Below, in pieces: positions 9,670-21,069 of a stretch of DNA of 64,000 nt. A program made the position numbers and the translations under genes. A model generated the notes under the pieces. It was given only the letters and a program-made list of their open reading frames with translations. It did no database searches and was not told the DNA's origin. This DNA comes from Paenibacillus sp. MMS20-IR301 (GTDB taxonomy: Bacteria; Bacillota; Bacilli; Paenibacillales; Paenibacillaceae): contig NZ_CP135275.1 in NCBI RefSeq assembly GCF_032302195.1, positions 1,798,001 through 1,862,000 of the forward strand. The letters run 5' to 3'. Each line of letters begins with the position of its first letter. Position 1 is the stretch's first letter.

Positions 9670-10923
9670 TTATTCATACCGCAAGGCATCTATCGGATTA
9701 AGCTTAGCCGCCTGGTTGGCCGGATAATATCCAAAGAACACGCCGATGCTCATGGAGAATAAGACGGTACCGCCAATGACTGCAGGTGAGAAAACAGCAT
9801 GGGTATTCATCAGCAGGGCCCCTCCGGCCCCGGCTAATAAACCTATCATAATCCCGATGATGCCGCCAACCAGCGACAGCATCATCGCCTCAGCAACAAA
9901 TTGCTGGCGGATTTGATGATCCCGTGCCCCCAATGCTTTCCGTACACCAATTTCATGGGTACGCTCCGTAACGGACACCAGCATAATATTCATTACACCA
10001 ATCCCCCCGACCAGCAGGGAAATTCCGGCTATGACCGCGACGGCAACGGATAAGGTTCTCATCATCGTGGTCATTGATTCAACTTCACTTTGCATATTAA
10101 AAGCATAACCTTCCCAGTCTGAATTACTCTGAGTCAGATGCTTAACATACGTATCCAGCTTGCCGGTAATCAGATTAATATCTGTATTCTTATGGGGCAT
10201 AATCGTAATCATGGCAAAATTCTTGAAGGCTGCTTCCTTCTTGGCGCTGGTTACGGGGATGAACCCGTTCGTTTCAATATCTCTGCTGGAGGATGTCATG
10301 AACTGTGACTGCTCATAACGATAGATGCCTATAATTGTAAACTGTTTGATCGCCCGCTCCATATATACGCTAACGTTACCACCGATTGCCGAACCGGAGG
10401 AGCCGTAAAGGGCTTGCGCCGTTTGATCCGAAATCACAATGACACTGCGGTTCCCCTGTACATCTGCATCACTGATAGTTCTGCCCTGCAGCAGCTTTAT
10501 ATTGTTGACCCGGCTGTACCCGGGATTCACTCCTATTAAAGACATATTGCTGTACTTACGCCCGATGCGGGCCTTCCCTCTTCCCAGCTCCTCCGTTAGG
10601 GAGATCGCTTCAATATCCGGATAGTTGGCCAGCATGGATTCAATTTGCTGCATGGAGAAGCGGTCTTTATCCTTCGGCTGCACAGCACTTAGGGTCTCGT
10701 CGTAGGGAGAAGGAGCCTCTTCAGAGCGCAAATGTACGCCGACGGTAACATTATTGACTCCAAGCCCCTGCATCTGGTTTGTAACTGAAGCAGTAACTAC
10801 ATTCCCCAGGGAAATGATTGAAATTACTGAGGATATCCCGATAATAATACCCAGCATCGTGAGGAACGAGCGCAGCTTATTCGCTCTCAGACTTTCAAGG
10901 GCAAGCAGAAGATTATCAATCAT
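9670..10923 (-). CDS. MacB/YknZ-like ABC transporter permease
   Basis: A 417-residue permease of the MacB/FtsX type. One membrane helix at the N-terminus (RSFLTMLGIIIGISSVISI) is followed by a large extracellular domain (about residues 45-280) and three C-terminal helices, the first preceded by ERTHEIGVRKALGA, the family's coupling-helix region. Such mechanotransmission permeases do not carry substrate through the membrane themselves; they drive an adaptor outside. The start overlaps the stop of the ATPase gene by four bases, so the two are translationally coupled. With the ATPase and the long adaptor at 11628-13898 it forms a YknXYZ-like pump, which in Bacillus subtilis protects against the toxin SdpC. 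Confidence 0.9.
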   Translation of the reverse strand: MIDNLLLALESLRANKLRSFLTMLGIIIGISSVISIISLGNVVTASVTNQMQGLGVNNVTVGVHLRSEEAPSPYDETLSAVQPKDKDRFSMQQIESMLANYPDIEAISLTEELGRGKARIGRKYSNMSLIGVNPGYSRVNNIKLLQGRTISDADVQGNRSVIVISDQTAQALYGSSGSAIGGNVSVYMERAIKQFTIIGIYRYEQSQFMTSSSRDIETNGFIPVTSAKKEAAFKNFAMITIMPHKNTDINLITGKLDTYVKHLTQSNSDWEGYAFNMQSEVESMTTMMRTLSVAVAVIAGISLLVGGIGVMNIMLVSVTERTHEIGVRKALGARDHQIRQQFVAEAMMLSLVGGIIGIMIGLLAGAGGALLMNTHAVFSPAVIGGTVLFSMSIGVFFGYYPANQAAKLNPIDALRYE

Positions 10924-11624
10924 TGATGAATCCCTCCGGAATTGCCGCCCGGTTCATCAGAAACGATAACACCGTCTCTAAGCGTAACGATCCGCGGGCA
11001 TAGCTGTGCAAGCTCAACCGAGTGAGTAATGAACAGAATTGTTTTCCGGTCCTCGCGGTTAATCCGCAGGAACAGGTCCATCACCAGATTTCCGGTCACT
11101 GAATCGAGTGCGCCGGTAGGCTCATCAGCCAGTATAATGGATGGGTTGTTCGCCAGCGCCCGGGCAATCGCCACACGCTGCATCTGTCCGCCGGAGAGCT
11201 CATTCGGCTGATGATGAAGCCGCTCCCCCATCCCGACCATTTCTAATAGTTCTTTCCCGCGTTTTGATCGTTCAGCTGCCTTCATGCCGGCATACATCAT
11301 AGGCAGCTCTACGTTCTTCAGTGCACTGTTGCGGGGGATGAGGTTGAAGGATTGAAACACAAAGCCGATCTTCTGATTACGGATGTGAGCCAGCTCCTCC
11401 CGGCTTAGCCGCTCAAGCGGCATTCCATCCAGGACATATCCGCCGCTCGTTGGCTGATCTAGGGCACCGATAATGTTCATTAAAGTTGATTTCCCTGAAC
11501 CCGATTGCCCGACTATGGCTACGAATTCCCCTTCAGCTATACTAAGATTCACGTGATTGAGCACGGTGATTTCATTTGCTGTGCCTGTGTAATACTTCTT
11601 AACCAGATCACTGATCTCAATCAT
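10920..11624 (-). CDS. MacB/LolD-type ABC transporter ATP-binding protein
   Basis: A 234-residue ATPase of the LolD/MacB/YknY class. Motifs: Walker A VGQSGSGKST, Q-loop VFQSFNLIP, signature LSGGQMQRVAIARA, Walker B IILADEPTGALD and the switch histidine in LFITHS. The TGALD after Walker B is characteristic of the class that pairs with FtsX-like permeases. It ends in a short hydrophilic tail that overlaps the permease start by four bases and begins three bases after the adaptor stop. The three genes therefore form one tight operon in the order adaptor, ATPase, permease. Confidence 0.93.
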   Translation of the reverse strand: MIEISDLVKKYYTGTANEITVLNHVNLSIAEGEFVAIVGQSGSGKSTLMNIIGALDQPTSGGYVLDGMPLERLSREELAHIRNQKIGFVFQSFNLIPRNSALKNVELPMMYAGMKAAERSKRGKELLEMVGMGERLHHQPNELSGGQMQRVAIARALANNPSIILADEPTGALDSVTGNLVMDLFLRINREDRKTILFITHSVELAQLCPRIVTLRDGVIVSDEPGGNSGGIHQ

Positions 11625-11627
11625 GCC

Positions 11628-13898
11628 TCATTCCTCCCAGCGTAAGCTTGGTGAAGTTGCCAGCAGCTCTGCAGCAGCTTGACCGTTCGCTTCAATAATC
11701 ATACCAGGCTCGAGGGCAGCCGCCGTTATTTCCACCAGGATGTCATTTTGAATTCCTGATGCTACCGGAAGCTTCTGGAGCTTATCTGCCCGGCGCACAT
11801 AGATGGCCTCACCTTGCGCATCATTAACTACAGCTTCAATGGGGACGGCAAAGACATTATCTTTTTCCTGCAGTACAATGTTCATCCGGGCATTCATACC
11901 TATGCGGATGCGCGGGTCAGCTTGAATCAGGTCAACTTTAGCTGCGAACTGCACATTAGTGCTTCCGGAGGTCTCGCCTGTTGCCGTCTTATCGGCCGCG
12001 CTGGCAAGAAAACCTACTTGTGCCTTGAATTCCTCTTCAGCGGTACCATCGGTTTTGATCACTGCTTGTTGTCCAAGCTGCATCACCCCGATATCGGATT
12101 CGCCTACTGTAGTGGTTACGGTCAGGTGGTCGGCATCCTCGACTACAAACATTAATCCTGTGGCAAACTGGCCAGCTGTAGAGTTGCTGAAAGTTACAGT
12201 TCCCGAAATAGGAGCCAGGAGGACTGCATCTGTCAGCTGTTTATTCAGCTTATCCAGTGTAACCTGCTGCAGATCAATGCTTAGCTGCGCTGCCTCAACC
12301 GTTTTCTGCTCAGACGCCTGCAGACTTAATTTTGCGGAGGAATAGCTGTTCTCAGCACGCTGAAGCGCCGTATTTGCGGTGGTATAGGCATCGCTTTGAT
12401 TTTTCAAAGCACTCTCATAGTTAATATTTGCCCGTTCCAGTGAATCCTTAGCGGTAGTCAGTGTATCCTGTGTGCCGCTTACAGCACTTGAATACGCATT
12501 TTGTGCTCTTTGCAGCGTATCCTTGGCCGTGCCCAGAGCATCCCTGGAGGCTTTGAGCGCATGATCATAGGCCTGCTGTGCTTTGTCTAAGCTGTCACGT
12601 GAGTTGATCAATCCCTCGCCGGCTGCGGCCACCGCGGAGTCATAACTAATTTGCGCCCGTTCTATGGCAAGTCTGGCCTGTTCCAGATTATCATCAGAAC
12701 TTTCAACGGATTGTTTATACTCAAGTTCTGCAGATTTCATGGATTCTTCTGCCGATTTGATGCTCTGCTTCATTTCTTCAGTAGCCGCAGTAACAGCAGC
12801 CTGCTTCTCACTTACAATAGCCAGGTTCTGCTTGACAACCTCTTGCAGGGCGGGGTCTCCGTCCGGGTTCTCTACAGATCTGCCGGCTTCGTATTTGGTT
12901 ACCGCTTCATTATAATTCCGCTGGGCATTCTGCAAATCATTGGCCGCCTGGTTTAATTTGGGGTTGGACTGGGCCTGGCGGTGAGCTTCTATTGCGGTGT
13001 TGTAACGGTTCTGGGTAGCACGTACGCTAAGTGAAACATTATTCTGCTTCAATTGAGTGTACTTGTTAACCGCAGCATTCAGCTCTGAACGTGCGCTCTT
13101 AACTGCTGCTGTATTATCAGATTGGGCCTGCAGGGAATTATAGACACGCTGAGCCGTTTCCAGCTCCTTTTGCGCTGTAGCTACATTCTCCGTCCGTTCA
13201 CCTTGAGAGTACAGCTGTTCATATGTCCGCTCGGCAACCGCAAGCTCAGTCTTGACTGACAATCCGGCAGCACCCGTATTCCCTTCAGCGTGGGATTTAG
13301 CTGTACTGTATTGCCGGCTAGCGATTTCCAGCTCGGCTTTAGCAGTCTGAACCGCGGCATTGGGGTTTGATTCTGCTTCTCTTCTTGCTTCCTTGTACTG
13401 GCGCTGTGCTGAATCCAGTTCAAGCTTTGCAGCTTTCAGGCTGGCAGCATTGGTGGAAATGGTATTCTTAATTTCAATCCCGGCGGTTTCCTTCGAATTC
13501 ATGGCAGTCAATAAATTCAACCGGGCTGTCCGGATATCCATCTCCAGATCGGCCGTATCCAGCTTAGCCAATACTTGTCCGCTGCTCACGTGCTCACCCT
13601 TCTTAACCAGCACCTCTAGTACTTTTAACGAAGAAGGTGCATATACCTGCCGTGAGTTTTGGCTGTTTACGGTACCTGACAGCAGCAGTGTGCGGGATAT
13701 CCGCTGCTTCTCCAGCTGCAGGGTAGTCAGGTTATTGAGTGCCTGCCCTTGCCGCTGGCTGCCCGTTACCAAGAATGAGATAAGCTGCCACACCACCAGG
13801 ATCAGCACAACACTTAGCACCAGAACTCTTTTTTTCTTGAAAAACCTTCTGCCGGTGCCGTCAGATTTCCGGATATTATCCAAATTCGCAGTATTCAT
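11628..13898 (-). CDS. HlyD/YknX-like adaptor with greatly expanded coiled coil
   Basis: A 756-residue membrane-fusion/adaptor protein, about twice the usual 370-400 residues. Order: cytoplasmic basic start, one membrane helix (about 24-45), the first lipoyl half (VLVKKGEHVSSGQVLAKLD), an alanine/tyrosine-rich helical region of some 450 residues, the second lipoyl half (LLAPISGTVTFSNS), a beta-barrel domain (VGESDIGVMQLGQQAVI) and a membrane-proximal domain. The descending helix shows at least four 25-residue repeats with the pattern LxxAQxxYxxA (for example DSLDKAQQAYDHALKAS, then DTLQRAQNAYSSAVSGT). The ascending part has looser 27-30-residue repeats. It is the first gene of the operon with the ATPase and permease, and its promoter region holds the CTTAAG boxes. 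The long helices could cross a thick peptidoglycan wall; that role is inference. Confidence 0.88.
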   Translation of the reverse strand: MNTANLDNIRKSDGTGRRFFKKKRVLVLSVVLILVVWQLISFLVTGSQRQGQALNNLTTLQLEKQRISRTLLLSGTVNSQNSRQVYAPSSLKVLEVLVKKGEHVSSGQVLAKLDTADLEMDIRTARLNLLTAMNSKETAGIEIKNTISTNAASLKAAKLELDSAQRQYKEARREAESNPNAAVQTAKAELEIASRQYSTAKSHAEGNTGAAGLSVKTELAVAERTYEQLYSQGERTENVATAQKELETAQRVYNSLQAQSDNTAAVKSARSELNAAVNKYTQLKQNNVSLSVRATQNRYNTAIEAHRQAQSNPKLNQAANDLQNAQRNYNEAVTKYEAGRSVENPDGDPALQEVVKQNLAIVSEKQAAVTAATEEMKQSIKSAEESMKSAELEYKQSVESSDDNLEQARLAIERAQISYDSAVAAAGEGLINSRDSLDKAQQAYDHALKASRDALGTAKDTLQRAQNAYSSAVSGTQDTLTTAKDSLERANINYESALKNQSDAYTTANTALQRAENSYSSAKLSLQASEQKTVEAAQLSIDLQQVTLDKLNKQLTDAVLLAPISGTVTFSNSTAGQFATGLMFVVEDADHLTVTTTVGESDIGVMQLGQQAVIKTDGTAEEEFKAQVGFLASAADKTATGETSGSTNVQFAAKVDLIQADPRIRIGMNARMNIVLQEKDNVFAVPIEAVVNDAQGEAIYVRRADKLQKLPVASGIQNDILVEITAAALEPGMIIEANGQAAAELLATSPSLRWEE

Positions 13899-13960
13899 CC
13901 TCTATTGCCGCTCCCCCATAATTCATTAATTTAAATAGTACCTTCACTGTAGCGGAGGAA

Positions 13961-14002
13961 TCTTAAGAACGGCCCATACCAGATCTTAAGAATTCTTAAG
14001 TT
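13961..14002. promoter_or_regulatory. three CTTAAG boxes between adaptor operon and two-component genes
   Basis: CTTAAG occurs at 13962, 13985 and 13995 (spacings 23 and 10 bases); the last two form TCTTAAGAATTCTTAAG. Tandem half-sites one helical turn apart are typical of OmpR/PhoB-type regulators. Exactly the same spacing recurs at 16867-16910. On the adaptor side the first box overlaps the -35 position of a candidate promoter (-10 TACTAT). On the regulator side the boxes lie upstream of a promoter with a good -10 (TATACT at 14038) but a poor -35. Confidence 0.65.
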
Positions 14003-14067
14003 GCCGAAATAGTGTAGTTTCTTGTCAGACTGCATACTATACTGAGGTTACGACTGGAGGGAAACGG

Positions 14068-14766
14068 ATGGACACAACGCACAATATCTTAATTGCCGAT
14101 GATAACGACGAAATCAGGGAAATTGTCCGGGTCTTACTGGAGAGTGAGAACTATAATGTCACTGAGGCTGTAAACGGTGATGATGCAGTCAACAAGGTGG
14201 ATGAACACACGGATTTAATCATTCTTGATATTATGATGCCGATAAAATCCGGGTTTAAGGCTTGTGTAGAAATCCGCGAAAAAACAAGTGCACCTATCTT
14301 ATTTTTAACCGCTAAAACTCAGGATTCAGATAAATATATGGCCTTTTCTGCCGGGAGCGATGATTACTTATCCAAGCCATTTTCGTATACAGAGCTGGTA
14401 TCCCGCGTAAAGGCCTTGTTAAGAAGATATTACGTCTACAAAGGCAAGGATAAGCCGCAGTCTGCTGATCATCTTTCGCTCCATGAAATCAGTATTAATA
14501 CAGCAATTAACGAGGTGTTCGCCGGGGATAAAGAAGTCCAGTTAACAGAGATTGAGTACCGGATCCTCTTACTGCTTGGACAGCACCAGAAGAAAATTTT
14601 CTCAGCCCAGAATTTGTACGAGAGCGTATGGGGAGAACCCTACTACTACAGCTGTAACAACACCGTAATGGTGCACATCCGGAATCTCCGCAGCAAGCTG
14701 GAGCAGGATCCGCAAAACCCTAAGTTAATCAAAACCGTTTGGGGAAAGGGGTATCGGATTGAGTAA
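14068..14766 (+). CDS. OmpR-family response regulator
   Basis: A 232-residue response regulator: receiver domain (1-120) with the acidic pair in IADDNDE, the phosphoacceptor aspartate in LIILDIMMP (about residue 54), the conserved threonine in LFLTAKT and lysine in YLSKPF, then a winged-helix DNA-binding domain (about 130-232) with EIEYRILLLL and HIRNLRSKLE. The layout resembles VanR-type regulators. The start has a GGAGGG ribosome site. The last eight bases overlap the kinase gene. It probably acts on the three-box CTTAAG sites at 13961-14002 and 16867-16910, which would place the adaptor-ABC pump, its own operon and the 16.9 kb divergent genes under its control. Confidence 0.92.
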   Translation: MDTTHNILIADDNDEIREIVRVLLESENYNVTEAVNGDDAVNKVDEHTDLIILDIMMPIKSGFKACVEIREKTSAPILFLTAKTQDSDKYMAFSAGSDDYLSKPFSYTELVSRVKALLRRYYVYKGKDKPQSADHLSLHEISINTAINEVFAGDKEVQLTEIEYRILLLLGQHQKKIFSAQNLYESVWGEPYYYSCNNTVMVHIRNLRSKLEQDPQNPKLIKTVWGKGYRIE

Positions 14767-16084
14767 GGACTTCTTCAGGGGAAAATTAAAAATCGAGCTG
14801 ATCCTGTGTCTAATCCTTTCATTTGCTGCAGCAGTCGGTTTGTTTTTTGTATTACAGGCAACAGGAGAAGGCTTGCTGGATAACTATTTTAGTAAATCTA
14901 CCTATATTGAAGATCAGAGAAAACAGGTGGTTAATGATTTCAAACAGTATGTATCAGATAAGCATCTAACCGTCTATGATGAGGAGGAAATTGCACGCTG
15001 GGTTAAAAATGAACGTTATATCAGTCTGTATATGTTTGTAGAAGACAAGCTTATCTTCAGTTCCACAGAAAATGAATCGGAGCCGGGCGGAAGTGACATC
15101 CTTATGTCTCCCCTGTTGATGAACAAGCCTCTCTACGACGTTCCATTTAACGGTACCGTTGCCCAGACCTATATTGACAGCTACTTTGAGTATAAGTACT
15201 ACTTTGTTGTTTCATTTATCGGCATTTCAATCGCTTTTCTGTTTTTTATCTTTGTCATGCTCTTCTTTATCAACCGGAAGACCTCTTATATTGCTGTGCT
15301 TGACAAGGAAATTAAGATCCTGGAAGGCGGAGAATTGGATTATCCGATTACCAGCAGAGGCAAGGACGAGCTTGCTTCATTAGCGCAAAGTATTAACGAG
15401 ATGCGGAAATCCTTTATTGAACGGCTGGACAGCGAGGATAAAGCCCGGAATGCCAACAGTGAGCTGGTCACGGCGATGTCACATGATTTACGTACCCCGC
15501 TCACCGCGCTCATTGGTTATTTAGATATCATCGAGTACCGGAAGTATAAAACGGATGAGCATTTAATGCAGTACATCCATAACAGCAGAGAAAAAGCCTA
15601 TCAGATTAAACAGCTCTCCGATAAGCTTTTTGAGTATTTTACGGTTTCTAATCTTACAGAGGATCATTTGGAACTTGAATCCTATGACGGAATCCAGCTG
15701 CTCGACCAGCTTTTGGATGATCAACTTTTAATCCTGCAAAATAGCGGTTTTCAGTTTCAATACATCCCGTCCGATCGCCCTTTCCAACTTGAGCTGAACG
15801 TGATTTCTATGCGCAGGGTATTTGATAATATTTTCTCAAACATTACAAAGTATGCCGATAAAGCTTCATCTGTCATCATTAAGTACCAGTTACGGAATCA
15901 GATGCTGCTGATAAGCATTTCTAACGAGATTAGCCGGACCTCAAGAGACATAACAGGCACAGGAATCGGGGTAAAGACATGTACCCGGATTATCGAGCAG
16001 CATAACGGGAAATTAGCTATAACCAAGGGAGAGCATACGTATTCCATTCATATCAGTTTGCCTGCTGCCCTCACTCCGGTTTAA
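14759..16084 (+). CDS. sensor histidine kinase
   Basis: A 441-residue membrane kinase. It starts at TTG 14759, six to seven bases after AAAGGGG and inside the end of the regulator gene. One membrane helix lies near residues 11-33, an extracellular sensor loop of about 120 residues follows, a second helix sits near 155-180, and then come HAMP (about 180-235), an H-box AMSHDLRTPLTALIGYLDI (about residue 240), an N-box DNIFSNITKYA and a G-box GTGIGVKTCTRI. It should phosphorylate the response regulator encoded just upstream. The short extracellular loop does not reveal its signal; antimicrobial peptide or envelope stress fits the adjacent pumps. The stop overlaps the stop of the convergent TVP38-like gene (shared TTAA). 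Confidence 0.92.
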   Translation: MSKDFFRGKLKIELILCLILSFAAAVGLFFVLQATGEGLLDNYFSKSTYIEDQRKQVVNDFKQYVSDKHLTVYDEEEIARWVKNERYISLYMFVEDKLIFSSTENESEPGGSDILMSPLLMNKPLYDVPFNGTVAQTYIDSYFEYKYYFVVSFIGISIAFLFFIFVMLFFINRKTSYIAVLDKEIKILEGGELDYPITSRGKDELASLAQSINEMRKSFIERLDSEDKARNANSELVTAMSHDLRTPLTALIGYLDIIEYRKYKTDEHLMQYIHNSREKAYQIKQLSDKLFEYFTVSNLTEDHLELESYDGIQLLDQLLDDQLLILQNSGFQFQYIPSDRPFQLELNVISMRRVFDNIFSNITKYADKASSVIIKYQLRNQMLLISISNEISRTSRDITGTGIGVKTCTRIIEQHNGKLAITKGEHTYSIHISLPAALTPV

Positions 16085-16812
16085 CGAAGGAATTCATTTC
16101 CATTCTCATACCTCTCTTCTTTTTTTATTTTGTTCCGTTTGGTAAGTTGATGAATGAGCTTGTCTTTATATAGCCACCCGAGCAGAAAAGCGAGAACGGA
16201 CAGGACCGATATAACCACTGTTGTTACATAATTCTGCTGATAAATAGTAGAGCCTACGCTTGCCGATAGAATAATCCAGGGCATTCTTCCCAGCAGTAAA
16301 ATTATAAAAAACTTTAGCGGCTTGATTGGGGTCAGTGCAGCGAGATAGATGAACAAATCCTTAGGCAGCCCTGGTATAACAAAAAAGATAAAAAGAATAA
16401 CCGGGAAATGCTCATGGTGCATGATGTTAGTCATCCAGCGGGACTTGCTCTTGCTCAGCAGCTGTTCTACGAAAGAACGGGCCATATACCGGGTGAAAAA
16501 GAATGCGATTACCGCGCCAATGAGCATTCCTGCGGTTGTGTACAGGCTTCCTATTGACGTACCGTAGATATATCCGCCGGCGATTTGAACAACTTCCCCC
16601 GGAATGGGGGCAACGACGGTCTGAAGAATCTGAAATCCTATGAAAACAGCGGGTCCCCAGTGTCCGGAAGACAGAATGAATTCTCTGAACTTTGGTATGG
16701 ACACTGTAATTTCGAGGATGCGAGGCAAATGAATAAGAATCACTGTCAGAATAGTAACGCCCACTATAGTCAGCAGTATTTTGCTTGCTATTGCTTTTTT
16801 GGTTTTAGCCAC
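16081..16812 (-). CDS. TVP38/TMEM64 (DedA-related) membrane protein
   Basis: A 243-residue integral membrane protein of the VTT/TVP38 superfamily. It begins at GTG 16812 after GGGAGG. The re-entrant-loop region is recognisable: SGHWGPAVFIGFQILQ, then APIPGEVVQIAGGYIYG, and later VIPGLPKDLFIYLAAL. Related DedA and VTT proteins act in lipid scrambling or flipping and in membrane homeostasis; which lipid this one handles is unknown. The C-terminus is charged (about 25 residues, KRNKIKKEERY). Its stop overlaps that of the histidine kinase, and its upstream region carries the same three-box CTTAAG pattern as the pump operon, so joint regulation is likely. Confidence 0.88.
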   Translation of the reverse strand: MAKTKKAIASKILLTIVGVTILTVILIHLPRILEITVSIPKFREFILSSGHWGPAVFIGFQILQTVVAPIPGEVVQIAGGYIYGTSIGSLYTTAGMLIGAVIAFFFTRYMARSFVEQLLSKSKSRWMTNIMHHEHFPVILFIFFVIPGLPKDLFIYLAALTPIKPLKFFIILLLGRMPWIILSASVGSTIYQQNYVTTVVISVLSVLAFLLGWLYKDKLIHQLTKRNKIKKEERYENGNEFLR

Positions 16813-16866
16813 AGTAAGTAGGCCTCCCTCTTATCTCTTTGTATATAAATAAAGTTTAGACAACAC

Positions 16867-16910
16867 TTCTTAAGTTCAGCATATCGAGGATCTTAAGAAT
16901 TCTTAAGTAA
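16867..16910. promoter_or_regulatory. second three-box CTTAAG cluster
   Basis: CTTAAG at 16869, 16892 and 16902: spacings of 23 and 10 bases, identical to 13961-14002, and the joined pair again reads TCTTAAGAATTCTTAAG. It lies between the divergent TVP38-like gene (minus) and the MarR-ABC operon (plus), and is probably bound by the response regulator encoded at 14068. Confidence 0.65.
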
Positions 16911-16948
16911 GGCTTGCCGTGTGTGACAATAGCTTAAATCTATGTTAT

Positions 16949-16972
16949 TATTAGTCCGAAATCAGACTATTA
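16949..16972 (+). promoter_or_regulatory. candidate MarR operator
   Basis: An inverted repeat ATTAGTC-N8-GACTATT (one mismatch) lies 22 bases before the MarR start and overlaps the -10-like TATTAT at 16968. Size and position fit autorepression by a MarR dimer. Confidence 0.5.
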
Positions 16973-16993: not shown

Positions 16994-17461
16994 ATGTCAA
17001 ATGATATAAAAGAAATGATTCGCGGTTACTATGATGTGTACTTTAATATTGGTGCCATATATGAAGAATTCGCTAAAATGCATGGACTTACCTCAAGCTC
17101 TCTCTTTGTACTCTACATCGTTCATCAGCAGCCTGAGCAATGCACCCAAGCAACCATTGTAGAACAGCTATTCTATCCCAAGCAGACCGTTAGCAGCATC
17201 CTTAATTCATTCGACAAACTGGGTTACATCACGAAGAATATTTCTGTCCAGGACAGACGGATCAGGCACATCTCCCTTACAGAAGCGGGGCAGCAATTCG
17301 CCGGTCAGGTGATTGCGGATATGTTAGAGCTTGAGGAAACGGCCTTTATTCGTATGAAAGATGCGGAGCGGAAAGGAATGCTTCAAGGGGAACAGGCTTT
17401 TCTTAAGCAGCTTACCTGGTCTATGGAAACTTTACAGGCCGCAAAACATGCCTCGGACTAA
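16994..17461 (+). CDS. MarR family transcriptional regulator
   Basis: A 155-residue winged-helix regulator. It shows the MarR helix-turn-helix (TQATIVEQLFYPKQTVSSILNS), then FDKLGYITK and the wing VQDRRIRHISLTEAG, with D-R-R as the family signature. The start has AAGGAG seven bases upstream. It is the first gene of an operon with two ABC exporter half-transporters beginning 27 bases later, the common arrangement in which the regulator senses a drug or lipid and derepresses the pump. A dyad at 16949-16972 is a candidate operator. Confidence 0.92.
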   Translation: MSNDIKEMIRGYYDVYFNIGAIYEEFAKMHGLTSSSLFVLYIVHQQPEQCTQATIVEQLFYPKQTVSSILNSFDKLGYITKNISVQDRRIRHISLTEAGQQFAGQVIADMLELEETAFIRMKDAERKGMLQGEQAFLKQLTWSMETLQAAKHASD

Positions 17462-17488: not shown

Positions 17489-19228
17489 ATGAAATATTTA
17501 ATTCAATTCTTAAAAAGCCGCAAGAAATTACTCTTTCTGATTGTGTTTACTGCTTTAATTCAAGCGTTCGGGACGTTAATGGTACCGTACTATGTTTCTG
17601 AAATGATAGACGTTGGGATTGCGAAAGAAAACATTTCGGCCATTGTAAGGATCGGGGTGCAGATGCTGGCGGCCATCGGGATCACGGCACTGGTTTCATT
17701 ATGGGGGAGTTATCTTTGTGCTGATCTGGCTGCCTTGGCGGGAAAACATTTCCGGGACCGGATTTTTGATAAAACACAGTTGCTCTCTATAAAAGAGTTC
17801 AATTCATTCGGCACTTCCTCGCTGATCACCCGGACTACCGGAGATATTACGATCATACAGCAAACTCTGATTATGATTACTCAGATGGTGTTGCCTACAC
17901 CGCTTATCGTGCTTGCCGGTATTATTCTGACCGCTGCTATTAGCCCAGCCTTAATTTATATCCCCTTAACAGCTATGCTTATTTTTTTTGTCTTTGTCTA
18001 TCTCTTGTTCAAGAAGGCTGCACCTGTGTCGAGAACTATACAAAACCGTGTAGACTCGGTTAACCGTGTTGTCCGTGAATCTATTTTAGGTCTCCGGGTC
18101 ATTCGTGCATTTGATAATACAGAGTTCGAGCGGGAACGTTCAAATGATGTTTTTACCAAATATGCCAATAACGTAATCAAGTTAAACCGGACCTTCGCCC
18201 TCTTCAATCCGACAGTATGGATGGTTATGGGGCTTGTGATGGCTGCAGTAGTCTGGTTTGGCGGGTACCAGGTACTTAAGGAAACGATCGGTGTGGGAAG
18301 TATCTCCGCTGTGACTGAGTACACGCTTATGATGCTGATGTTTTTGATGATGTCAGCGATGGCTCTAGTCATGCTGCCAAGAATGCTGACCTGTCTTTCA
18401 CGGATTGAAGAAGTTCTGGATATAGTTCCGGAAATCAGAGATGATGCCGAAACCGCTGGCACGCCTGATGCTGCAGATTCCCGGAAGATTGTATTCAATG
18501 ATGTGGACTTCTCCTACAACGGGACAGACAAGTCCGTATTAGAAGGAATCAGCTTTACTTGCCTGAAAGGCGAGACAACCGCAATTGTTGGCGGAACAGG
18601 CGCAGGGAAAAGTACTCTGGCTGCTCTGATGCTGCGTCTGTATGATGTTCAAGCCGGCGGAATTCTGTTTGAAGGACAAGATATCCGGCGGATCTCTCAG
18701 CACGAGTTACGGGAACGGATCGGCTATGTGCCCCAGAGGGCATTCTTATTCAGTGGAACGATTGCGGATAATCTCCGCTCGGGCAACACCGATGCGTCCC
18801 ATGAGGAGCTCCGGCATGCTGCGGCAATTGCTCAAGCAGACTCTTTCATTTCATCGCTTGAGCTAGGTTATGACAGCCCTGTTGCACAGGCAGGTACGAA
18901 CTTTTCCGGTGGGCAAAAGCAAAGGCTCTGCATCGCCCGTGCCTTAGCCAAGAAAGCCCCTGTGTACATCTTTGATGACAGCTTCTCCGCCCTGGATTAT
19001 AAGACGGACGCCTCTCTGCGGGAAGCTTTGAAGCTCGAGATGTCGGAAGCGGCCGTTGTGATCATCGCTCAGCGAATCAGCACTATTATGGACGCAGATC
19101 AGATTATTGTCTTAGATAACGGTAAAATCGCAGGCATCGGCAAGCATGAAGTGTTAATGGAAACCTGCAGCGTGTACAAAGAAATAGCAGACTCTCAGTT
19201 TATAGATAGGGAGACACAAGTGGTATGA
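17489..19228 (+). CDS. ABC exporter subunit with degenerate catalytic site
   Basis: A 579-residue exporter half: six-helix membrane domain (about 1-310) and nucleotide-binding domain. Walker A VGGTGAGKST, Q-loop VPQRAFLFSG and signature FSGGQKQRLCIARA are normal. Walker B reads VYIFDDSFSALD, with aspartate where the catalytic glutamate normally sits, and the switch segment is IIAQRIST, with Gln replacing the usual His. Such substitutions mark the non-hydrolysing site of heterodimeric exporters such as BmrCD and TM287/288. Its partner is the next gene, whose start overlaps this stop by four bases. Together with the MarR gene they form a multidrug- or lipid-export operon. The substrate is unknown. 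Confidence 0.92.
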   Translation: MKYLIQFLKSRKKLLFLIVFTALIQAFGTLMVPYYVSEMIDVGIAKENISAIVRIGVQMLAAIGITALVSLWGSYLCADLAALAGKHFRDRIFDKTQLLSIKEFNSFGTSSLITRTTGDITIIQQTLIMITQMVLPTPLIVLAGIILTAAISPALIYIPLTAMLIFFVFVYLLFKKAAPVSRTIQNRVDSVNRVVRESILGLRVIRAFDNTEFERERSNDVFTKYANNVIKLNRTFALFNPTVWMVMGLVMAAVVWFGGYQVLKETIGVGSISAVTEYTLMMLMFLMMSAMALVMLPRMLTCLSRIEEVLDIVPEIRDDAETAGTPDAADSRKIVFNDVDFSYNGTDKSVLEGISFTCLKGETTAIVGGTGAGKSTLAALMLRLYDVQAGGILFEGQDIRRISQHELRERIGYVPQRAFLFSGTIADNLRSGNTDASHEELRHAAAIAQADSFISSLELGYDSPVAQAGTNFSGGQKQRLCIARALAKKAPVYIFDDSFSALDYKTDASLREALKLEMSEAAVVIIAQRISTIMDADQIIVLDNGKIAGIGKHEVLMETCSVYKEIADSQFIDRETQVV

Positions 19229-21069
19229 AAAAAATCAGGAAACAACGCAAAGACAGAGTAATCCACTCTGCAGAAATGACGGATGTCCCCAAAAACTCAA
19301 AAGCTACGATCAAGCGGCTGCTGGAACTGCTGATGCTTCAAAAAGGCCCGCTGAGCCTGATTGTTTTTGCAACTTTTGTAAGCATAGGATTGTATACAGT
19401 TACCCCATTAATCTTGGGAAGAGCGATCGATCAGCTGATTGAAGGCATTCAAGAACAAGGACTTAGCGGCGGGTTTGGTATGCTCTATAATACAATCGGC
19501 GCATCACTGCTATTGTTAGTTGGCTTTTATATGCTAAGTGCTGGCTTCTCATTCATACAAGAATATACGATGGCCAGTGTTGGAGAACGCCTGGTTTTGT
19601 CCTTACGTAAAAAGATGAGCGAGAAAATTACTAAATTACCTTTGAGTTACTACGATTCCCGCCAGACTGGTGATCTGCTTAGCCGGGTGACTAACGACCT
19701 GGATAAAGTGGCAGAGGTGTTAAAGACCGGTTCGCTGCAATTTATGAATGCTATCTTTAATATTACACTTAGTGTTATTCTGATGCTGACTCAAAGCTCT
19801 CTGCTCACGGTGTTAATTCTGGTATCCTTGTCTATAAGTGTATTTGCAACCAAATGGATTTCCGGTAAAAATTATAAGGTTGCCTCCGAGAACCAGACGG
19901 TGCTGGGTGAGCTGAACGGTAAAATTGAAGAATACTATACAGGTAATTTGATTATCAAAAGCTTTAATCAGCAGGAACAAATCACAGAGACTATGAGAGA
20001 AATCAGTCAAAGACAATACAGTGCCAATAAAAAGTCCCAGTTTGTGCTCTATGCCATTTATCCCGCTATCCGTTTTCTAACCCAGCTTGCTTTTGTTGTT
20101 ACAGCTGTTGTCGGCGGAATCTTCGCAGTAAACGGACGGATAACTATAGGTACCATTCAAGCCTTCCTGCAGTATGTGAACCAAATTTCCGACCCGATCA
20201 CCCAATCGTCTTACTTCTTAAATTCACTGCAGTCCGCCCTGGCCTCTGCTGAACGGGTTTTTGAATTTCTGGATGAACCAGAAGAAGTTCAGGATACGGA
20301 TTCACCCAAACTAATCTCCTCTCCTCAAGGTGCGGTAAGCTTTGAGCATGTTCAGTTTGGTTATCATCCGGATAAGCTTTTAATGCAGGATATCAGCTTT
20401 AAGGTCGAACCTAATCAAATGGTAGCGATCGTCGGCCCGACGGGTGCGGGCAAAACCACGCTTATTAACCTGCTGATGCGGTTTTATGAATTGAATGGCG
20501 GACGAATTCTGATTGACGGTACGGACATTAAGGAATTGCCCAAGAGCGGACTGCGTACAATGATTGGCATGGTCCTGCAGGATACCTGGCTGTTCAAAGG
20601 CACAATCGCCCAAAATATCGCTTACGGCAAAATGAATGCTTCCCGTGATGAAATCATTCAGGCCGCCAAAGCCGCTAGATGTGACGCATTTATTAGAACT
20701 TTAGAACATGGCTATGACACAATCATATCCAGTGAAACCGGAAGCATCTCACAAGGCCAAATGCAATTATTGACCATAGCCCGGGCGATGTTAGCTGATC
20801 CTGCACTGATGATTCTTGATGAAGCGACTTCCAGCGTGGATACCCGAACAGAAGTGGAAATTCAAAAAGCTATGGCGGAGATGATGAAGGGCAAAACCAG
20901 CTTTGTGATTGCGCACCGGCTCTCTACGATCCGGTCTGCTGATATCATTCTGGTGATGAAGAATGGAACAATCATCGAAACGGGGACGCATGAGGAGCTT
21001 CTTGCAGGCGAGACCTTCTATGCGGATTTGTATAACAGCCAGTTCGCTAATGGCGGAATGCCGGCATAA
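19225..21069 (+). CDS. ABC exporter subunit with canonical catalytic site
   Basis: A 614-residue exporter half with a 40-residue charged N-terminal extension. The membrane domain covers about 45-345 and the ATPase the rest: Walker A VGPTGAGKTT, Q-loop VLQDTWLFKG, signature ISQGQMQLLTIARA (S-Q-G-Q rather than S-G-G-Q), Walker B LMILDEATSSVD and switch histidine VIAHRLST. It thus supplies catalytic Glu and His, while its signature is the divergent one. Its overlapping upstream partner has the opposite pattern. This complementarity is the classic layout of a heterodimeric exporter with one active ATP site. Confidence 0.93.
   Translation: MKKIRKQRKDRVIHSAEMTDVPKNSKATIKRLLELLMLQKGPLSLIVFATFVSIGLYTVTPLILGRAIDQLIEGIQEQGLSGGFGMLYNTIGASLLLLVGFYMLSAGFSFIQEYTMASVGERLVLSLRKKMSEKITKLPLSYYDSRQTGDLLSRVTNDLDKVAEVLKTGSLQFMNAIFNITLSVILMLTQSSLLTVLILVSLSISVFATKWISGKNYKVASENQTVLGELNGKIEEYYTGNLIIKSFNQQEQITETMREISQRQYSANKKSQFVLYAIYPAIRFLTQLAFVVTAVVGGIFAVNGRITIGTIQAFLQYVNQISDPITQSSYFLNSLQSALASAERVFEFLDEPEEVQDTDSPKLISSPQGAVSFEHVQFGYHPDKLLMQDISFKVEPNQMVAIVGPTGAGKTTLINLLMRFYELNGGRILIDGTDIKELPKSGLRTMIGMVLQDTWLFKGTIAQNIAYGKMNASRDEIIQAAKAARCDAFIRTLEHGYDTIISSETGSISQGQMQLLTIARAMLADPALMILDEATSSVDTRTEVEIQKAMAEMMKGKTSFVIAHRLSTIRSADIILVMKNGTIIETGTHEELLAGETFYADLYNSQFANGGMPA

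Follow-up and report, generated by a model that had tools for sequence, protein, structure and literature searches.

Two intergenic regions in a 64,000-nucleotide stretch of Paenibacillus sp. MMS20-IR301 (contig NZ_CP135275.1, positions 1,798,001 to 1,862,000; hereafter the window) carry the same array of three CTTAAG boxes, which raises the question of which regulator reads this array, and for which genes. Both copies have the form CTTAAG-N17-CTTAAG-N4-CTTAAG on the forward strand. Array 1 (13962..14000) turns box 1 (13962-13967) toward the genes of an export pump, and boxes 2 and 3 (13985-13990 and 13995-14000) toward those of a response regulator and a sensor histidine kinase. Array 2 (16869..16907), with the same boxes and spacing, turns box 1 (16869-16874) toward the gene of a TVP38-like membrane protein, and boxes 2 and 3 (16892-16897 and 16902-16907) toward a MarR-family regulator gene and an ABC exporter. 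Judged from sequence comparison, the array is probably (about 0.82) the operator of the VanR-like response regulator and kinase, serving target activation and autoregulation of the regulator, and doubled in the genome of the window.

A recount in the window placed the boxes exactly where the first-pass annotation had put them, starting at 13962, 13985 and 13995, and again at 16869, 16892 and 16902. As it had claimed, these are the only such clusters in the window: three boxes within 45 bp occur nowhere else, and the other nine of the 15 CTTAAG hexamers are single. Its description of the two arrays as identical holds for the boxes and their spacing, but not for the N17 spacer. All 18 box bases and the AATT between boxes 2 and 3 are common to both, as are 30 of the 39 bases in total. 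Together with the AATT, boxes 2 and 3 form a perfect 16-bp palindrome in the window arrays, CTTAAGAATTCTTAAG, exact copies of which occur in the genome only at arrays 1 and 2. As such, the hexamer shows no enrichment (15 observed in the window, shuffle mean 13.24); the enriched feature is the arrangement of the boxes. A genome-wide search for the pattern, which had been proposed as a check, found the exact array at two places of the 7.69-Mb genome and no more, both within the window, where about 7e-5 copies per genome would be expected by chance (first-order Markov model, window composition). With up to three mismatches there were nine matches, namely the two arrays without mismatch and seven places with three, and the reversed control gave 17.

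The response regulator encoded between the arrays (14068..14766, + strand) combines a Response_reg domain (PF00072, 95.6 bits) with a Trans_reg_C domain (PF00486, 89.6 bits), as is the rule for the OmpR/PhoB class. We followed it through 394 genomes of the family (inferred to be Paenibacillaceae), including 100 genomes of the genus, and through a named collection of loci; numbers with G and L are our handles for genomes and loci. The regulator was matched at E<=1e-85 in 55 of the 394 genomes, in 52 with at least 68% identity (window genome included) and in three with 55-62%, and the upstream stretch of every one of the 55 was inspected. The array lies directly upstream of the regulator in 51 of the 52 genomes. 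Its longer spacer is N17 in 48 of them (0 to 3 mismatches in the 18 box letters) and N18 in three (G146, G336 and G281). In the lone exception, G122, the regulator gene contains two stops (L211, 2894-3568) and is preceded by a merely degenerate pair. The same locus of G122 keeps a one-mismatch array upstream of its TVP38 and PssA genes. None of the three regulators of 55-62% identity (G069, G256 and G365) has the array upstream. All 18 genus relatives with the regulator keep it, and in another genus, g17, the regulator (E<=1e-75) and the array occur in the same six of 16 genomes.

The association extends to Clostridium intestinale (L118), a member of a different class, in which an exact array separates the TVP38 gene from the divergent regulator and kinase genes (regulator 78% identical). 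In Saccharibacillus sacchari (regulator likewise 78%), an array with one mismatch stands between the pump and the two-component genes; adaptor, ATPase and permease are there 43, 77 and 60% identical to the pump proteins of the window. Exact arrays were found at 16 places in 15 of the 394 genomes, all 15 of which have the regulator, and none in the 342 genomes without a regulator of at least 68% identity. Arrays with one mismatch added 12 places, ten of them in genomes with the regulator. The MarR gene beside array 2 has relatives (E<=1e-20) in only three of the 394 genomes, so the array travels with the response regulator and not with MarR. Because the array accompanies the regulator in 51 of 52 genomes, because exact arrays all lie in genomes that have it, and because MarR is this rare, the response regulator is very probably the reader. 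The first-pass annotation had named it as the obvious reader and had held that absence of the pattern upstream of orthologous genes would refute the idea. The idea survives this comparison and is strongly supported by it, also through C. intestinale and through relocated copies in genomes with the regulator. The whole module of TVP38, exact array, regulator and kinase in C. intestinale further suggests a transfer between classes.

The array is asymmetric, with box 1 toward the target and boxes 2 and 3 toward the response regulator. Read along the strand of the target, 50 of 50 distinct target sides have a TANNNT that begins exactly at +16, counted from where box 1 starts, against a mean of 0.94 in 50 at other offsets (the most frequent of these being +18 with 17 and +27 with 10). 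In the window these predicted -10 elements are TACAGT for the pump operon (13946..13951) and TAAACT for the TVP38 gene (16853..16858), both on the - strand, along which they begin 16 bp after box 1 starts. A predicted -10 at this fixed distance favors the pump and TVP38 as targets, as had been proposed. On the regulator side, 40 of 46 distinct arrays have TANNNT at 43 or 44 bp, counted from where box 3 starts; the predicted -10 of the two-component operon in the window, TATACT (14038..14043, + strand), lies at 43 bp. The array was listed at 58 places, 57 of which are independent (L120 and G221 are apparently one genome). Box 3 is CTTAAG in 57 of the 58, and box 2 is CTTAAG in 24, CTGAAG in 24, CTTAAT in seven and CTTAAA in three. 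The palindrome of boxes 2 and 3 is often lost while their 10-bp direct repeat is kept, the N4 between them having belonged to the search pattern for these places. In G141, where no divergent gene faces the regulator, box 1 upstream of the regulator has decayed and boxes 2 and 3 stay.

OmpR-class regulators that read direct repeats are well known. In the mechanism that we propose, the response regulator, phosphorylated presumably upon a membrane-stress signal, would bind boxes 2 and 3 at their 10-bp spacing and, past a poorly conserved stretch, box 1, all as direct repeats. Lying 10 bp upstream of the target -10, box 1 would provide a class II activator contact with RNA polymerase, and since it sits where such an activator would touch the polymerase, the target is probably activated. 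Boxes 2 and 3 precede the -10 of the regulator gene by approximately 43 bp and would give autoregulation. Depending on the species, the target would be a TVP38-like protein, a CDP-alcohol phosphatidyltransferase or a MacB/YknXYZ-like pump.

The usual arrangement is one array between divergent TVP38 and two-component genes, and in most relatives this single array would serve both sides jointly. TVP38 is directly divergent from the regulator in 18 of 18 genus relatives with the regulator, and among the listed places box 1 faces TVP38 in 48, the pump in seven, PssA in two and nothing recognisable in one. The window genome, with its doubled array, has the pump divergent from regulator and kinase across array 1, followed by TVP38 divergent from the MarR and ABC genes across array 2. 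Here array 1 would serve the pump and the two-component system, and array 2 would serve TVP38. The pump genes, all on the - strand, encode a permease (MacB_PCD and FtsX, 9670..10923), a separate ATPase (ABC_tran, 10920..11624) and a HlyD-type adaptor of 756 aa (11628..13898), the set expected of a MacB/YknXYZ-like pump. Close homologues of the permease (E<=1e-110) occur in seven of the 364 family genomes searched, that is in the window genome and in six g17 genomes, which are the same six that have regulator and array. The TVP38-like protein (16081..16812, - strand) has the VTT domain (PF09335, 80.2 bits) of the DedA superfamily.

A third kind of target is suggested by the relatives. A gene for a PssA-like CDP-alcohol phosphatidyltransferase, recognized by sequence, comes next after TVP38 in five of the 18 genus relatives (G023, G030, G048, G053 and G077). 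G154 has a second array, an exact one, ahead of such a gene downstream of the kinase (L213, 8153-8191). In G343, an array precedes one (L214, 8104-8142) on a contig other than that of the regulator, which has an array of its own. PF01066 was confirmed for the phosphatidyltransferases of G030 and G154. The regulon, which had been called local, therefore need not be so, given the G343 copy on another contig. As to its members, the two-component system, the pump and TVP38 are supported as had been claimed, and the MarR-ABC exporter is not supported as stated.

Several points weigh against our reading. We infer activation, as opposed to repression, from the geometry alone. The -10 positions are predictions, and on the regulator side they are off 43/44 in six pump-type g17 genomes, which make up all six misses. 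One-mismatch matches occur in two of the 394 genomes without the regulator (G191 and G351). Up to two mismatches, 28 of the 100 genus genomes were matched, 12 of them being without the regulator, and the reversed control there was of the same order. We set G191, G351 and these 12 aside as chance matches, as their genomes have no regulator of at least 68% identity. In the scan of the 394 genomes the reversed pattern gave 16 matches; its hexamer is another one (GAATTC), and it serves as a rough control only. The more distant relatives have at most a two-box pair, and most have nothing. No three-box array was seen by eye in 14 such regulator loci (L121-L134), for which no three-box scan was made. 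A two-box scan of 29 loci (L118-L146, the array-holding L118-L120 included) found a pair of the same spacing that passes the shuffle test (<=0.007) at L126, L127, L128 and L130, with regulators of 43-48% identity, and at no further locus apart from L118-L120. A fourth, cryptic half-site within the N17 is unsupported: array position 12 is the best of 12 offsets, with a mean match of 2.61 in 6, a value that none of 2000 row shuffles attains but that is equalled by 1079 of 2000 column-permuted controls. Finally, part of the conservation is owed to the descent of a single short intergenic region from a common ancestor.

This last point leads to an alternative in which a different regulator binds the array, or the array has a structural role, and its proximity to the response regulator is due only to shared ancestry of the locus. 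Since the array is short and lies within one ancestral intergenic region, the co-occurrence could be inherited. The absence of exact arrays from all 342 genomes lacking a close regulator speaks against this, as do the relocated copies in regulator-bearing genomes, before PssA on another contig in G343 and before the pump in another genus, and we regard such an origin as improbable. Somewhat less so, yet still unlikely, is that the response regulator reads the array but represses its targets. Box 1 is close upstream of the predicted -10, a site at which binding can also block the polymerase; the 10-bp gap, however, is that of strongly CiaR-activated promoters, as far as the available part of the source describes them (PMC3091779). 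MarR regulators usually bind palindromes, and MarR (16994..17461, + strand) could in principle read CTTAAGAATTCTTAAG as an inverted repeat, given that boxes 2 and 3 with the AATT are perfectly palindromic in the window. The array-bearing G077 also has a MarR homologue of 38-39% identity approximately 1.6 kb past the kinase (L105, reversed, 12557-13018), apart from the array. Yet MarR is found in one of 100 genus genomes (E<=1e-25), the only copy being that of the window, and in three of the 394 family genomes, whereas the array is present in all 18 genus relatives with the regulator, none of which has a MarR counterpart at this place. Moreover, box 2 departs from CTTAAG at 34 of the 58 places, where the palindrome is lost and the direct repeat kept, and MarR has a palindrome of its own. 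Owing to its rarity, the broken palindromes and this separate site, we rejected MarR as reader of the array, a role that is very improbable.

The palindrome in question, TAGTC-N8-GACTA (16952..16969), is a candidate MarR operator: it sits directly after the -10 of the predicted MarR promoter (GTGACA-N17-TATTAT, 16923..16951, + strand) and is the single match in the window (shuffle mean 0.02). G239 has a MarR orthologue of 52% identity with a similar palindrome upstream, and its upstream stretch holds no array. A further 17 MarR relatives were found, and the three with a taxon name are presumably all clostridial. Judged from the MarR gene, MarR and the exporter are apparently newcomers beside the array of TVP38, with their own promoter. 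This bears on a wider version of our reading, which adds to it and does not exclude it, namely that the response regulator controls everything beside both arrays as one regulon. Boxes 2 and 3 of array 2 are intact, and the MarR -10 keeps the distance from box 3 seen in regulator promoters (44 bp from its start, where those have 43/44), leaving possible room for control by the response regulator. On the other hand, TVP38 suffices to explain array 2, a fair -35 (GTGACA) belongs to the MarR promoter itself, and the related MarR gene of G239 does without an array. The intact boxes 2 and 3 say little about MarR, because they are largely intact also in arrays without a regulator promoter on that side (exact in the second array of G154, one change in box 2 in G122 and in the second array of G343, one change in each box in the second array of G141). 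Control of the exporter by the response regulator may or may not have been gained; its membership in the regulon is doubtful, and a regulon covering both sides of both arrays is possible, with the odds somewhat against it.

The operator that we propose for the response regulator resembles that of CiaR in streptococci (NTTAAG-N5-TTTAAG), an OmpR-type regulator that likewise reads TTAAG-type direct repeats according to the accessible part of PMC3091779. In CiaR-activated promoters the target -10 lies ten bp after the last repeat, and this gap was used in the search published there. The same gap separates box 1 from the -10 here (6 + 10 = +16, in 50 of 50). In contrast to the N5 of CiaR, boxes 2 and 3 are N4 apart in both window arrays (10-bp period), three boxes share a divergent promoter, and the targets are other ones. 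In the recognition-helix region, matched by eye, the response regulator of the window has TVMVHIRNLRSKL and CiaR has VVEVYVSKVRKKL. SaeR of Staphylococcus aureus is another response regulator that reads TTAA-centred repeats (GTTAA-type), with other spacing and unrelated targets, and no fixed three-box divergent array was found for it in the part of PMC5083920 that is available. The best NCBIfam models are VanR (VanR-ABDEGLN) for the regulator and VanS for the kinase, and both scores are far below the curated cut-offs (240.3 bits against 350, and 114.5 against 400), so that the regulator is VanR-like and not assigned to VanR. No van resistance gene was found among the ten neighbouring genes scanned.

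A simple tandem duplication of the TVP38-array-regulator-kinase module with loss of the outer copies would fit the gene order of the window, with its doubled array, but the 70-bp flanks of arrays 1 and 2 are dissimilar (22/70 and 16/70 matching), and we rejected it. In G141, the two-component genes and the PssA-TVP38 genes are convergent with one array each, as the two-component and TVP38 genes are in the window; the split may therefore be older. The regulator tree (without G122) does not place the window regulator firmly. In the kinase tree (without G122 and both outgroups) the window joins the pump-type genomes weakly (81/51). The TVP38 tree was built without G122, G030, G077 and G146. In all three trees, the rows left out had been filtered for stops or short matches. 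At nearly even odds, we suggest that a polar, bidirectional operator of 39 bp spreads by whole copying, each copy pointing box 1 at a gene for membrane lipids or export and boxes 2 and 3 outward. Such copies would have let an ancestral module of lipid protein and two-component system recruit PssA-like synthesis, a MacB-type pump and possibly the new MarR-ABC exporter. The natural variants show that a divergent operator can be duplicated and passed to new genes.

The gene families point toward the function. We take the TVP38-like protein, which shares the VTT domain of the DedA superfamily, to belong to COG0398. For COG0398 (TVP38/TMEM64) proteins a role as phospholipid scramblases has been suggested (PMC10127716, in the part available). 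The pump shares adaptor, ATPase and MacB_PCD/FtsX permease with the YknWXYZ and MacAB types and differs in its 756-aa adaptor. YknWXYZ is described in the available part of PMC4887032 as a major efflux pump for the SDP toxin. The kinase (14759..16084, + strand) has HAMP, HisKA and HATPase domains after two hydrophobic segments (8-37 and 145-176), which enclose approximately 107 residues. Together, a TVP38-like protein, a phospholipid synthase, a MacB-type pump and a kinase with such a stretch suggest a response to membrane damage or to a membrane-active compound. The envelope-stress response proposed in the first-pass annotation is likewise read from gene families. The response regulator, its three-box divergent operator and its regulon were not found described among the papers listed in searches of an open-access library, subscription journals being largely uncovered. 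If the operator did spread by whole copying, the outcome would be a membrane-lipid stress regulon of the family that has gone unrecognised, present also in C. intestinale. The proposed operator and regulon are concrete enough to be put to the test for a VanR-like two-component system. Furthermore, they would place phospholipid synthesis, export and a DedA-superfamily protein whose function is unclear under a common regulator, and so aid the search for what these proteins respond to.

The genes flanking the arrays are as the first-pass annotation had described them. On the right-hand side, the MarR gene is followed on the + strand by the two exporter halves (17489..19228 and 19225..21069), each with an ABC_membrane and an ABC_tran domain. 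The kinase and TVP38 genes are convergent, and their ends overlap by 4 bp (16081-16084). In many relatives a GNAT acetyltransferase gene lies beside the module, after the kinase in L102, L106, L107 and L114, and after TVP38 in L117, L120 and L237-L243. Pfam confirmed the assignment for L106 only, and genes of similar length follow the kinase in L108-L111 and L113.

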